Shown here one piece after another: positions 9,525-59,507 of a stretch of DNA of 64,000 nt. Both the position numbers and the translations under genes were made by a program. The notes beneath the pieces were generated by a model. The model was not told where the DNA came from, did not search any database, and saw only the letters and a program-made list of their open reading frames with translations. The stretch comes from Actinomycetota bacterium (GTDB taxonomy: Bacteria > Actinomycetota > Acidimicrobiia > Acidimicrobiales > Ilumatobacteraceae): contig VGAK01000001.1 of NCBI GenBank assembly GCA_016870775.1, positions 1-64,000 on the forward strand. Reading direction: 5' to 3'. Position 1 is the stretch's first letter, and each line of letters opens with the position of its first letter.

Positions 9525-10307
9525 TCAGCCGTCGACGCGCCGGAGCGTCGCGAGGAGCGACTCCATCATCTCGGGCCCCGACGCCACGACCGGCCGACGG
9601 CGCGCGGATGGATCGAGCACGAAGAGCTCGGAGTCGTCGGCCTCGGCGACCATCGCGCCGGCCTCCTCGCAGAACAGCAACGCGGCCAGGTAATCCCACA
9701 CTCCGTGACCGTGGAAGTCGACCCACCCATCGAGTGCGCCGCACCCCACGAGACACACGTCGAGAGCGGCCGACCCCATTGCGCGCACCTGCCACCACGG
9801 ATGGTCGCGGGGCGGCACACCGTTGACACCGACCACGGCCGCCGATGGCGCGGTCTCGGGTGCGACACGGGCGCGGTTGCCGTCCACGTTCGCGCCCGCC
9901 CCCCTGATCGCGCCGTAGCGCGTCTCGCTCCCCGACTGCTCGGCCACGAGTCCCACGCGGGGACCATCGGCATCCACCACGCACAGCGCCGTCGCGAACC
10001 AGGGCAACCCGCGGCTGGCATTGGTGGAGCCGTCGACGGGGTCCACGACCACGAGCAGGGTCCCGTCGTCGCCCGTCCAATGCAGCGGGGAGCCGGTGCT
10101 CTCCTCGCTCAGGACCACCAGCCCGGCTGCCTCGCACATGTCCACCACGACCTCGTCGACGGCGACATCGCCCGAATACTGCCCCTCACGCTCGCCCGTG
10201 AACTCCCACGCACCGGTCTCGTCGAGGGTGTCGGCGGCGGCGTCGACCACATGGTGGAGGAACGCGAGGATGTCGCGGTCGTCGCTGTCCACACCGAACC
10301 GCGCCAT
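9525..10307 (-). CDS. inositol monophosphatase family protein (possible histidinol-phosphatase)
   Basis: 260 aa. The Mg-dependent phosphatase motifs are present: VVLSEES, VVDPVDGSTNASRGLPW (DPxDGT-type metal site with Ser for Thr) and GHGVWDYLAALLFC (WDxAA-type). Substrates in this family include inositol-1-phosphate, PAP, fructose bisphosphate and, in actinobacteria, histidinol phosphate (HisN). The his cluster here encodes a HisB with only the dehydratase domain, so a separate HisN is needed; this gene is a candidate but lies 16 kb away and cannot be assigned. The ATG has TACCGT 6 nt upstream and shares an overlapping divergent promoter with the 190-aa gene. Confidence 0.82.
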   Translation of the reverse strand: MARFGVDSDDRDILAFLHHVVDAAADTLDETGAWEFTGEREGQYSGDVAVDEVVVDMCEAAGLVVLSEESTGSPLHWTGDDGTLLVVVDPVDGSTNASRGLPWFATALCVVDADGPRVGLVAEQSGSETRYGAIRGAGANVDGNRARVAPETAPSAAVVGVNGVPPRDHPWWQVRAMGSAALDVCLVGCGALDGWVDFHGHGVWDYLAALLFCEEAGAMVAEADDSELFVLDPSARRRPVVASGPEMMESLLATLRRVDG

Positions 10308-10330
10308 GCGCCAACGGTAGTGTCATTGTC
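10308..10330. promoter_or_regulatory. bidirectional leaderless promoter, shared TA
   Basis: The 23 bp between the two start codons hold a minus-strand TACCGT box (10319 to 10314) 6 nt from the phosphatase ATG and a plus-strand TAGTGT box (10318-10323) 7 nt from the GTG at 10331. The boxes overlap and share the TA at 10318-10319. No Shine-Dalgarno fits on either side, so both mRNAs should begin at their start codons. Confidence 0.72.
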
Positions 10331-11351: not shown

Positions 11352-13027
11352 CAGATGACCGGGACTTCCACGTGCCGGCCGAACACTCCCCCGAGCGTGG
11401 CCATCATCTCCCCGAGCGTCACGCGCGAGCGCGAGGCCTCGATCAGGGCCGGCATGAGGTTCGCCTCGGGGTCGGCCGCGAGTTCGGCGAGCCGCGCGCG
11501 GGCCGCGTCGACCCCGTCGGCACTGCGGCTCGTGCGCACCGAGGCGAGTCGCTCGCGCTGGCGCCTCTCCTGTTCGTTCGTGATGCGCAGGATGTCGATA
11601 CCGGACTCGTCGTTGCCCTCGGTGAACCGGTTCGCCCCGACCACGATCCGCTCCCCGGCGTTGAACGCGCGCTCCAGTTCATAGGCCGAGTCGGCGATGC
11701 GACCCTGGAACCAGTTCTCGTCGATTCCGCGGATGCATCCCTCGAGCATCGACCCGCCACCCATCGAGGAGATCTCGGCGAACATCTCCTCGGCGCGACG
11801 CTCGATCTCGTCGGTGAGTTCCTCGACGAACCACGACCCACCGAGCGGGTCGGCCACCAGCGGCACGTTGGTCTCGTGGGCGATCACCTGCTGGGTGCGC
11901 AGCGCGATGCGTGCGGCCTTCTCTGTGGGGAGCGCGAGTGCCTCGTCCATCGAGTTCGTGTGCAACGACTGCGCCCCACCCATGACGGCCGCCAACGCCT
12001 CGATGGCGGTGCGCACGATGTTCACCTCGGGCTGCTGGGCGGTCAGCGACACACCCGCGGTCTGGGCGTGGAAGCGCATCTGCAGTGACCGCTCCTCCAC
12101 GGCGCCGTAGCGACCGCGCATCCAGCGCGCCCAGATGCGCCGTGCGGCACGGTACTTGGCGACCTCCTCGAAGAAGTCGATGTGCGCGTTGAAGAAGAAC
12201 GAGAGCCGGTGTGCGAACGAATCGACCGGAAGACCCGCCGACAGCGCGAGCTCGACGTAGGCGAAGCCGTTGGCGAGAGTGAATGCGAGTTCCTCGGCCG
12301 CGGTCGAGCCCGCCTCGCGGATGTGGTAGCCCGAGATCGAGATCGAGTGCCACCTCGGCATCTCTGCGGCGGTGAAGGTGACGACGTCGCGCACGAGCCG
12401 CATCGACTGGCGCGGCGGGAAGACGAATTCCTTCTGCGCCTGGTACTCCTTCAAGATGTCGTTCTGGAGGGTTCCCCCGAGGCTCGCCCGCGGCACGCCG
12501 GCGGACTCGGCCTGGGCGACGAACATCGCCAGAACCGGTGCGGCAGGTGAGTTGATCGTCATCGAGGTGGTGATCCGACCGAGGTCGATCCCCCGGAACA
12601 GATCCTCCATGTCGACCACCGAGTCGATCGCCACCCCGCACCGTCCCACCTCGCCGAGGGACATCGGATCGTCTGAGTCGAGACCGAGCAGGGTCGGCAT
12701 GTCGAAGGCCGTGGACAGACCGTCACCACCAGCCGCGATGATCTCGCGGAACCGGGCGTTGGTGTCCACGGCGGTGCCGAAACCGGCGAACATCCGCATC
12801 GTCCAGAGCTTGGAGCGGTACATCGACGCGTACGGTCCGCGCGTGTAGGGGTAGAGCCCCGGGAACTCGCCGTCGTCGGGTCCGTACACCGGCTCGAGGG
12901 GAATCCCCGACATCGTCGAGTGCGACGCGGGACCGAGGCGCGACGCCTCGTAGGCCGCGCGCCACTGCTCGCGCGCCCCCACGTCACCGGCTCCGGCTCC
13001 GGCGCCCCGATTCGTGTCCTGCGTCAC
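11351..13027 (-). CDS. icmA: acyl-CoA mutase large subunit with isobutyryl-CoA mutase active-site residues
   Basis: 558 aa, the substrate-binding TIM-barrel half of a B12-dependent acyl-CoA mutase ([49 protein letters not shown]). In methylmalonyl-CoA mutase, Tyr89 and Arg207 hold the substrate carboxylate; in isobutyryl-CoA mutase they are Phe80 and Gln198. Counting from GTG 13027, this protein has Phe80 ([10 protein letters not shown]) and Gln198 (EYQAQKEF). Hence isobutyryl-CoA/butyryl-CoA interconversion is the better call, although automatic annotation would say methylmalonyl-CoA mutase. GTG 13027 is supported by TACGAT 7 nt upstream (leaderless). Together with mmsA it fits valine or isobutyrate metabolism. 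Confidence 0.8.
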
Positions 13028-28891: not shown

Positions 28892-28943
28892 GGGCACAGT
28901 CTCGCCGTTCGCGGGGTGCTTCGGCGCGCCAATTCGCGCGGCC

Positions 28944-57177: not shown

Positions 57178-57993
57178 TCAGACGGGCTCGGCCCACGCGG
57201 GCGCGCGCTTCTCGAAGTCCGAGAGAACGGCCTCGCGCTGGTTCGCCTTGCCGATCAGACCACCGATGACCTCGCGCTCGGCGGCGAACTGGTCGGCGGC
57301 GTAGTCGAGTGCGAGCCTGTTGAGGAGGCGCTTTGCTCCGCGCACCGCATCGGGGCTGCGCCCACAGATCTCCCGCGCCCAGGCGAATGCATCCTCGAGC
57401 GGTGTCTCGGAGAGCCGGGTGACGACACCGATGGCGTGCGCCTCGCGACCGTCGAAGATGCGTGCCGACAGGACGATGTCCTTCATCACGTCGGGGCGCA
57501 CGAGCCCCTGCAGCAGCACGGTCCCGGCCATGTCGGGAACGAGACCCCAGTAGGTCTCGCGCACCGAGAACTTCGTGTCGGGGTGCGCGATCCGGATGTC
57601 GGCGCCGAGCGCGAGTTGGCATCCACCACCGAGGGCATGCCCGTGCACCGCGGCCACGACCGGCATCGGCAGTTCCTGCCACACCCACGAGGCCTGCTGG
57701 CCGAGGTGCGTGATCCCCGAGGCCGCCATGTCGCCCGCCTGCGGTGTGCGCTCGCCGTTTCGCCGCTCCCCACTGGCCATCCCGCCGAGCGAGGCGAGAT
57801 CGATGCCGGCACAGAACGACTTGCCCTCGCCCGAGACGACGACGACATTGACCCTCTTGTTTGTCTTCAGGCTCTCGCCGGCCTCGACGATGGCGGCGAA
57901 CTGGTCGCCGTCGAGTGCGTTTCGCTTGTCGGGACGGTTGAAGCGCACATGGGCGATGCCGTCGGAGATGTCGATGAGGACGCGGTCTGACAT
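57178..57993 (-). CDS. crotonase/enoyl-CoA hydratase family protein
   Basis: 271 aa crotonase fold. The oxyanion hole lies in GEGKSFCAGIDLASLGG and HGHALGGGCQLALGADIRI. Classical hydratase uses two Glu; here the first is Gln (GGGCQL) while the second region keeps Glu and an Asp eight residues on (SVRETYWGLVPDMAGT), a pattern shared with dienoyl-CoA isomerases and many actinobacterial crotonases. Hydration is therefore uncertain; isomerisation is possible. ATG 57993 lies 6 nt after CAGACT, in an inverted-repeat copy of the promoter of the divergent nitroreductase. Confidence 0.82.
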   Translation of the reverse strand: MSDRVLIDISDGIAHVRFNRPDKRNALDGDQFAAIVEAGESLKTNKRVNVVVVSGEGKSFCAGIDLASLGGMASGERRNGERTPQAGDMAASGITHLGQQASWVWQELPMPVVAAVHGHALGGGCQLALGADIRIAHPDTKFSVRETYWGLVPDMAGTVLLQGLVRPDVMKDIVLSARIFDGREAHAIGVVTRLSETPLEDAFAWAREICGRSPDAVRGAKRLLNRLALDYAADQFAAEREVIGGLIGKANQREAVLSDFEKRAPAWAEPV

Positions 57994-58072
57994 GCCCACA
58001 GTCTGCCACCACGGGTGAGCCGCCGTTCCATCGGAGAACGGGCACCCGACCGGGGCGTGGCAGACTGTGTGC
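57994..58072. promoter_or_regulatory. divergent twin promoters in a perfect 13-bp inverted repeat
   Basis: CACAGTCTGCCAC (57997-58009) and its exact inverse GTGGCAGACTGTG (58057-58069) flank a 47-bp centre. Each arm places CAGACT exactly 6 nt before the start codon of the crotonase (ATG 57993) or nitroreductase (GTG 58073). The arms may be duplicated -10 regions or a shared operator. Confidence 0.65.
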
Positions 58073-58720
58073 GTGAAACTGAACCTGTCCTCCGACGAAG
58101 TCCTCTCCACCACGCGCAGCGTCCGCAAGCGCCTCGACTTCGATCGTCCGGTCGAGCGAGAGATCGTGGAGGAGGCACTCGAGTTGGCCCTCCAGGCCCC
58201 GACCGGCTCGAACAGCCAGGGCTGGCACTGGATCATCATCGAGGATGCCGCCAAGAGGAAGGCCCTCGCCGACATCTACGCCGAGAATTTCAAGATCTAC
58301 GCATCGATGCCCGGCCGCGAGTACTCCGAGGGCGACACTCGCGGCGAGCGCATGGATGCGGTCCGCGACTCGGCCTGGTACCTCGCGGAGAACTTCCACC
58401 GCTCGCCGCTCATGCTGGTGCCCGCGATCGAGGGGCGTCTCGACAACCTGCCCTCGTTCGCGACCGCCTCGGTGTGGGGTTCGCTGTTGCCAGCAGTGTG
58501 GAGCTTCATGCTGGCCCTGCGCGAGCGCGGCATGGGTTCGGCCTGGACCACGATCCATCTCATGAACGGCGGCGAGGAGAAGGTCGCCGAGATCCTCGGG
58601 ATCCCGCACGACAGGATCAGCCAGGCCGGCTTGTTCCCGATCGCCTACACGATCGGCACCGACTTCAAACCCGCCAAGCGCGAGCCCCTCTCGAGCGTCC
58701 TCCACTGGGACAAGTGGTGA
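58073..58720 (+). CDS. nitroreductase family protein
   Basis: 215 aa FMN-dependent nitroreductase fold. STTRSVRKRLDFDRPVEREIVEEAL is the standard N-terminal helix with the FMN-binding Arg pair, APTGSNSQGWHWIIIEDAA binds flavin phosphate, and ERGMGSAWTTIHL with GIPHDRISQAGLFPIAY closes the fold. It probably reduces quinone- or nitro-like or enone substrates with NAD(P)H. GTG 58073 follows CAGACT by 6 nt. The shared mirror-image promoter with the crotonase suggests co-expression, perhaps in breakdown of an acyl-CoA or aromatic compound. Confidence 0.87.
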   Translation: MKLNLSSDEVLSTTRSVRKRLDFDRPVEREIVEEALELALQAPTGSNSQGWHWIIIEDAAKRKALADIYAENFKIYASMPGREYSEGDTRGERMDAVRDSAWYLAENFHRSPLMLVPAIEGRLDNLPSFATASVWGSLLPAVWSFMLALRERGMGSAWTTIHLMNGGEEKVAEILGIPHDRISQAGLFPIAYTIGTDFKPAKREPLSSVLHWDKW

Positions 58721-58753: not shown

Positions 58754-59485
58754 CTATTCGACGAGGCGCAACCCGCTCGGGGCGATCGATTGATCGGCGA
58801 ACGGGAGATCCACGACGAACTTGGTGCGATGCGCGGGGAACACGTGGTGGCTCACGAGCACCACGCGCCCCGATGTGTCCGTGGTCGTCCTCGTGCAGCG
58901 CAGCACCGGCGACCCAACCGGGACCGCGAGCAGCGCCGCCTCCGCGGAGTCTGCCGCATCGGCGCCGATCGTCTGGGTCGCACCGCTCAACGGGATGTCG
59001 AGGAGTTCGTAGAACGGCGACCGCTCCACGTCGGCCCGCGAGAGGTGCTGTGCGAGATCACCCGCGCACCACACGGTCACGATCGCAAACGGCTCGCCGT
59101 CGGCGAGATTGAGGCGCTTCACGCGCAACGCGTGGGGATTTCCGAACGCGCGGGCCACATCGCGGGGTGCCTTCTCGAAGGCGAACTCGAGGATCCGCCG
59201 CTCGGGCCTCACACCCGAGGCACGCATCTGCTCCTCGATCGTGGCGAGCCGCGCGAGCGGCTGGCGAACCGTCTCACCGGCGACGAACCACCCGAATCCC
59301 TGGCGCGCGTCGACGAGCCCCTCGTCGCGAAGCATCTCGAGTGCCTTGCGGATCGTGACGCGGCTCGCGGAGAACTCCACCGACAACTCGGACTCGCTCG
59401 GCAACAGACGACCGGCGGCGTACTCGCCCGAGTCGAGCCGCGCCCTGAGCTCCTCGGCGATTTGGTGGTATCGAATGGTGCGCAC
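58754..59485 (-). CDS. GntR family transcriptional regulator (HutC/UTRA subfamily)
   Basis: 243 aa. The N-terminal winged helix-turn-helix is classical GntR (YHQIAEELRARLDSGEYAAG, LPSESELSVEFSASRVTIRKAL, DARQGFGWFV). The remaining ~165 residues match a UTRA ligand domain (RILEFAFEKAPRDVARAFG, RLNLADGEPFAIVTVW), so it should sense a small acidic or sugar-like metabolite. It diverges from the aconitase gene over 69 bp that contains GntR-type sites, making aconitase a likely target and the gene probably self-regulated. Start GTG 59485; no ribosome site is evident. Confidence 0.87.
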   Translation of the reverse strand: MRTIRYHQIAEELRARLDSGEYAAGRLLPSESELSVEFSASRVTIRKALEMLRDEGLVDARQGFGWFVAGETVRQPLARLATIEEQMRASGVRPERRILEFAFEKAPRDVARAFGNPHALRVKRLNLADGEPFAIVTVWCAGDLAQHLSRADVERSPFYELLDIPLSGATQTIGADAADSAEAALLAVPVGSPVLRCTRTTTDTSGRVVLVSHHVFPAHRTKFVVDLPFADQSIAPSGLRLVE

Positions 59486-59507
59486 TTGTATTAGAGTTGT
59501 CTACACA
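59486..59507. promoter_or_regulatory. putative GntR operator between regulator and aconitase
   Basis: GTCTACAC (59499-59506) fits the GT-N-TA-N-AC core known for HutC-type GntR operators on both strands. An upstream half-copy TTGTATTA (59486-59493) repeats TTGTCTAC (59497-59504) 11 bp away, one helical turn. The site lies just upstream of the regulator's start and 48 bp before the aconitase ATG. Confidence 0.5.

Follow-up and report, generated by a model that had tools for sequence, protein, structure and literature searches.

A mirrored 13 bp repeat between a crotonase-family and a nitroreductase-family gene read as two divergent extended -10 promoters in freshwater Acidimicrobiia

The gap between a crotonase-family gene and a facing nitroreductase-family gene was analysed in an Ilumatobacteraceae genome, within a window that comprises positions 1–64 000 of contig VGAK01000001.1. 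The gap very probably holds two independent, divergently oriented promoters, each an extended -10 element (TGn-CAnnnT) that lies 6 nt from its start codon and gives a leaderless mRNA; the 13 bp identity between them reflects convergence or one-off copying. What the sequence itself shows is a pattern of five invariant bases, set at a regular distance from the start codon and recurring genome-wide, together with arms that do not co-vary. In the mechanism that we infer from this, RNA polymerase carrying the housekeeping sigma factor would recognise the TG and the -10 hexamer at each arm, transcription would begin with the first nucleotide of the start codon, or beside it, and the mRNA, having neither a leader nor a Shine–Dalgarno sequence, would be translated directly. 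The mirror image would then result from two facing genes that use the same promoter dialect.

The gene pair and the inverted repeat

The crotonase-family gene (enoyl-CoA hydratase/isomerase, PRK07509-like; 57178–57993, minus strand) scored above cut-off with PF00378 and NF005699, and its ATG start codon (57991–57993, minus strand) was placed by the agreement of ortholog starts. The nitroreductase-family gene (58073–58720, plus strand; 215 amino acids) was identified with PF00881 (E = 1.5e-20); ortholog alignment favours the GTG at 58073–58075 as its start over an upstream GTG at 58067. Past the nitroreductase gene lie a GntR/UTRA regulator and aconitase, and the other flank carries a glutamate synthase that was called gltB-like on its sequence, without a profile scan. 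The gene order is kept in relatives and the head-to-head crotonase/nitroreductase pair is conserved in the genus. An Rfam search of the window gave three tRNAs only.

The first-pass annotation had described a perfect 13 bp inverted repeat with a 47 bp centre and with CAGACT 6 nt from each start codon, and the sequence confirmed all of these. The left arm (57997–58009, minus strand) and the right arm (58057–58069, plus strand) both read GTGGCAGACTGTG and are identical at 13/13 positions; CAGACT is separated from the start codon by 6 nt on both sides, and with the spacer and the start codons included the match is 17 of 19 bases. Any -35 or UP contacts that the two promoters make would fall in the non-repeated centre (58010–58056, no strand), in which a comparison of the gaps across the genus showed no conserved element. 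A search of the 1.74 Mb genome returned two exact copies of GTGGCAGACTGTG, both at this gap, namely the two arms.

When the gap alone was shuffled, a 13 bp inverted repeat appeared in 4 of 20 000 shuffles. In 364 kb of the same genome the count of such repeats (within 80 bp) was five, compared with 0–6 in shuffled sequence, and for this reason the repeat taken alone carries little evidential weight. The striking feature is the register of the repeat with both start codons. An RNA hairpin formed from the repeat was rejected as an explanation, as the arms would lie outside a leaderless mRNA; a hairpin could form in the DNA only. Further exact inverted repeats of 14–16 bp with loops of 12–14 nt were noted elsewhere in this genome (L036:6094-6139, 11431-11472 and L042:14822-14862).

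Conservation of the two promoters and regulator readings

Each arm is best read from its sequence as a putative -10 element of the extended type (TGnCAnnnT) that serves a leaderless mRNA. The crotonase promoter (G-TG-G-CAGACT-GTGGGC; 57994–58009, minus strand) consists of a TG extension at 58008–58007, a -10 hexamer at 58005–58000 and a 6 nt spacer at 57999–57994, and no Shine–Dalgarno sequence was found upstream of the crotonase start. The nitroreductase promoter (G-TG-G-CAGACT-GTGTGC; 58057–58072, plus strand) has its TG extension at 58058–58059, its -10 hexamer at 58061–58066 and its 6 nt spacer at 58067–58072.

The relatives used for comparison were freshwater Acidimicrobiia of the Ilumatobacteraceae/acIV type from the same genus. 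A close crotonase ortholog (at least 76% identity over the matched part) was present in 26 of 31 same-genus genomes, and 26 loci, window included, gave the full crotonase–nitroreductase gap. Crotonase starts outside the genus were often misplaced in the family-wide table, and conclusions were drawn from the genus only. T-3, G-2, C1, A2 and T6 were invariant at both promoters in 26/26 loci; the arm finder scored A2 and T6 itself, and the unaligned gaps give the same result. The hexamer ends 6 nt before the start codon on both sides here and 6 or 7 nt before it in all genus relatives. On the crotonase side any base may stand between TG and CA (G9 A7 C6 T4 over the 26 loci), as expected for TGn, and the columns outside TGnCAnnnT drift. 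The crotonase arm of relatives is mostly GTGnCAAACT or GTGnCAAGAT, with n free, and the nitroreductase arm usually takes the form GTGGCAGACTGCC; other genera have GGCACACTTGA or similar at the nitroreductase promoter. The assignment of the arms to a promoter -10 region was borne out. CAGACT had been said to depart from TANNNT at position 1; its first base is indeed C and not T, but this is no real departure, since C is tolerated there where TG occupies the extended position. The similar context noted before hisB (28892–28903) shares the spacer of 6 (GAGACT-GTGCCC-ATG) but lacks the TG extension.

Comparison of the arms with each other gave 6–9 of 13 agreeing positions in 25 relatives (4–7 differ) and 13/13 in the present genome, the single outlier. 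Mean arm identity was 8.19/13 within a genome versus 8.09/13 between genomes (permutation p = 0.30). The gap measures 60–96 bp over the 26 genus loci and 79 bp here, so that there is no fixed arm spacing. The relatives thus conserve neither the two arms as the same sequence nor the distance between them: their arms diverge in all 25 cases with both promoters intact at the sequence level. Old paralogy as the source of a duplicated promoter was rejected, the arms of relatives having only TGnCAnnnT in common. The annotation had proposed a duplicated promoter or a regulator site overlapping -10 with coordinated control; as a conserved arrangement this found no support, for relatives keep both promoters and not the mirror. 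The perfect 13 bp identity is special to the present genome and is not a maintained regulatory symmetry; as judged from these alignments, the pattern in the genus fits two independent extended -10 promoters and not a shared, maintained regulatory site.

Joint control by one regulator bound to the same 13 bp site at both promoters, overlapping -10, is accordingly very improbable, even though the repeat is perfect here, the head-to-head pair is conserved in the genus and the nitroreductase arm of relatives forms a palindrome, GGCAGACTGCC, over the -10 element with positions 3, 7 and 8 nearly fixed. This reading fails because the relatives retain both promoters without the mirror; in addition, the arms do not co-vary, their spacing varies, the crotonase arm of the 25 relatives is without the GGCAGACTGCC palindrome and the palindrome has been lost in the present genome. 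Matches to TGGCAGACTGCC in relatives fall almost solely at the crotonase/nitroreductase locus (14 of 16), which argues against a regulon, and the putative operator of the neighbouring GntR regulator is absent from the gap.

GGCAGACTGCC occurs on the nitroreductase promoter only (for example in the L016 and L005 gaps). The nitroreductase arm is, in the sequences compared, conserved past the promoter pattern and apparently more than a bare promoter requires, which counts against the two-promoter explanation. A local repressor acting through GGCAGACTGCC on the nitroreductase promoter alone, in much of the genus though not in the present genome, would account for an arm that is more conserved than the crotonase arm. 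We consider such a repressor unlikely, the palindrome being incomplete in at least 10 of 26 loci and in the window and missing in other genera (GGCACACTTGA or similar); the extra conservation may also be slow drift.

A GntR/HutC-like neighbour acting through its own site was rejected as a candidate: TTGTMTACA, the core of that site, occurs once in the 1.74 Mb genome, at 59497–59505, outside the gap. The site itself, TTGTATTA-n-AGTTGT[AC]TACA, lies where the GntR/UTRA regulator begins (window 59484–59506, in the GntR/aconitase gap) and is near-invariant across the genus and in a neighbouring genus. To judge by its sequence and position it looks like a single-target operator, possibly for self-control of GntR and perhaps for control of aconitase.

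Origin of the perfect identity

Under independent evolution 13 identical positions are improbable, about 2e-5 for the locus, which also counts against the two-promoter explanation; in simulations with independent draws from the genus profiles 13/13 was reached in 1.7e-5 of cases, before allowing for selection of the locus. The effective chance is higher than this, because a striking case was picked from a large number of gaps, windows and genomes.

The rarity of 13/13 in these draws and its isolation among the genus loci favour the idea that, in this lineage, one arm was copied from the other. Template switching between imperfect inverted repeats (quasi-palindrome correction) would leave the identity as a mutation footprint, and it would refine the two-promoter explanation and not replace it; we regard it as plausible, at somewhat less than even weight. 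The match continues through unconstrained bases as far as the start codons (17/19). The two nearest relatives have CAAGAT on the crotonase side, in which three neighbouring bases (AGA to GAC) would have to change for it to equal the other arm, as in a block change towards an unchanged donor arm. The gap is able to form a hairpin (z -4.3), and homogenisation of inverted-repeat arms by template switching has been reported (PMC8604942). Against copying, the shared GTG tail is ancestral in neither arm, so that it is without an ancestral donor and no clean donor is visible; the nearest relatives are about 83% identical in protein, and the free sites had time for independent change. The locus was also chosen for being striking, and none of the other divergent promoter pairs in the samples shows 13/13. 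That a replication template switch copied a working promoter onto the facing one and perfected the repeat in a single event is a rather doubtful but possible version. If it were true, promoter sequence would have passed from one end of a divergent intergenic region to the other by being copied, and one-off copying in this lineage may count as a kind of promoter duplication.

The extended -10 class in the genus and in known systems

Promoter statistics were compiled from 1.16 Mb in four genomes (364 kb of the present one, 800 kb from three relatives) with a simple custom gene finder. The gene finder made the crotonase gene too long (58275 instead of 57993) and did not call the nitroreductase gene, and the locus was thus excluded from the statistics. 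In the 364 kb, TANNNT before predicted starts peaks at spacers of 6–8, from which it follows that leaderless genes are common in this genome. Over 32 genus genomes TGGCANACT-N6-7-ATG gave 115 matches, about 23 of which (read from the listed coordinates) are the crotonase/nitroreductase locus itself; with the ATG moved to N12-13 there were 32 matches, and the pattern in reverse gave 17. In the present genome 6 of 9 GTGGCANACT sites (both arms included) lie 6–7 nt before a long ORF. Divergent pairs with gaps of just 22–23 bp were observed as well (L174:10360-10382, L141:12977-13000 and window 10307-10330); in these both -10 boxes overlap, and palindromes such as AGGGTACCCT serve both directions.

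The occurrence of TG ahead of xAnnnT at spacer 6–7 before first genes depended on the first base of the hexamer: 1/129 for T, 13/29 for C, 9/15 for G and 5/22 for A, or 1/129 for T versus 27/66 for non-T (Fisher p about 6e-14; 1.16 Mb, four genomes). The rate expected from control spacings is about 6% (28/440). If weak hexamers need TG to work as promoters, part of the contrast between T and non-T is to be expected; that TG is so rare ahead of T-first hexamers (1/129 versus about 6% at control spacings) does not follow from this. The near-exclusive split suggests compensation, or avoidance of too-strong TGnTAnnnT promoters.

The mirrored repeat very probably represents two ordinary promoters, of little importance beyond showing the promoter dialect of these freshwater actinobacteria, in which a -10 hexamer beginning with C is normal provided that TG is there. 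The split between TAnnnT without TG and TGn with a non-T first base provides a simple annotation rule for starts and promoters in freshwater Acidimicrobiia. The literature search that was made found no paper on leaderless promoters in this group.

Quasi-palindrome template-switch products (PMC8604942, PMC7202029) are like the present repeat in having inverted-repeat arms closer than ancestry predicts, and differ from it in that here there is no demonstrable donor arm, the closest relatives being too distant. TANNNT marks leaderless genes in Actinobacteria (PMC3160421), and the Actinobacteria and Deinococcus–Thermus signal (PMC3160421, PMC12340547) shares with the arms a hexamer about 12 nt from the start, the lack of a Shine–Dalgarno sequence and invariant A2 and T6, whereas the arms have C and not T as first base and carry a TG extension. 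Mycobacteria are already known to have YANNNT and TGN elements: YANNNT is the common -10 in M. marinum, so that C-first is accepted there (PMC8022548), and TGNNANNNT is the recognised extended -10 of M. tuberculosis (PMC5511352). TGnCAnnnT fits both this element and YANNNT after TGN, and so resembles the mycobacterial extended -10 of TGN plus (Y)ANNNT (PMC8022548, PMC5511352, PMC3898074). The distribution is what differs: in M. tuberculosis TGN stands ahead of 7% of TANNNT (PMC3898074), whereas in the genus studied here it is rare on T-first hexamers and concentrated on non-T ones.
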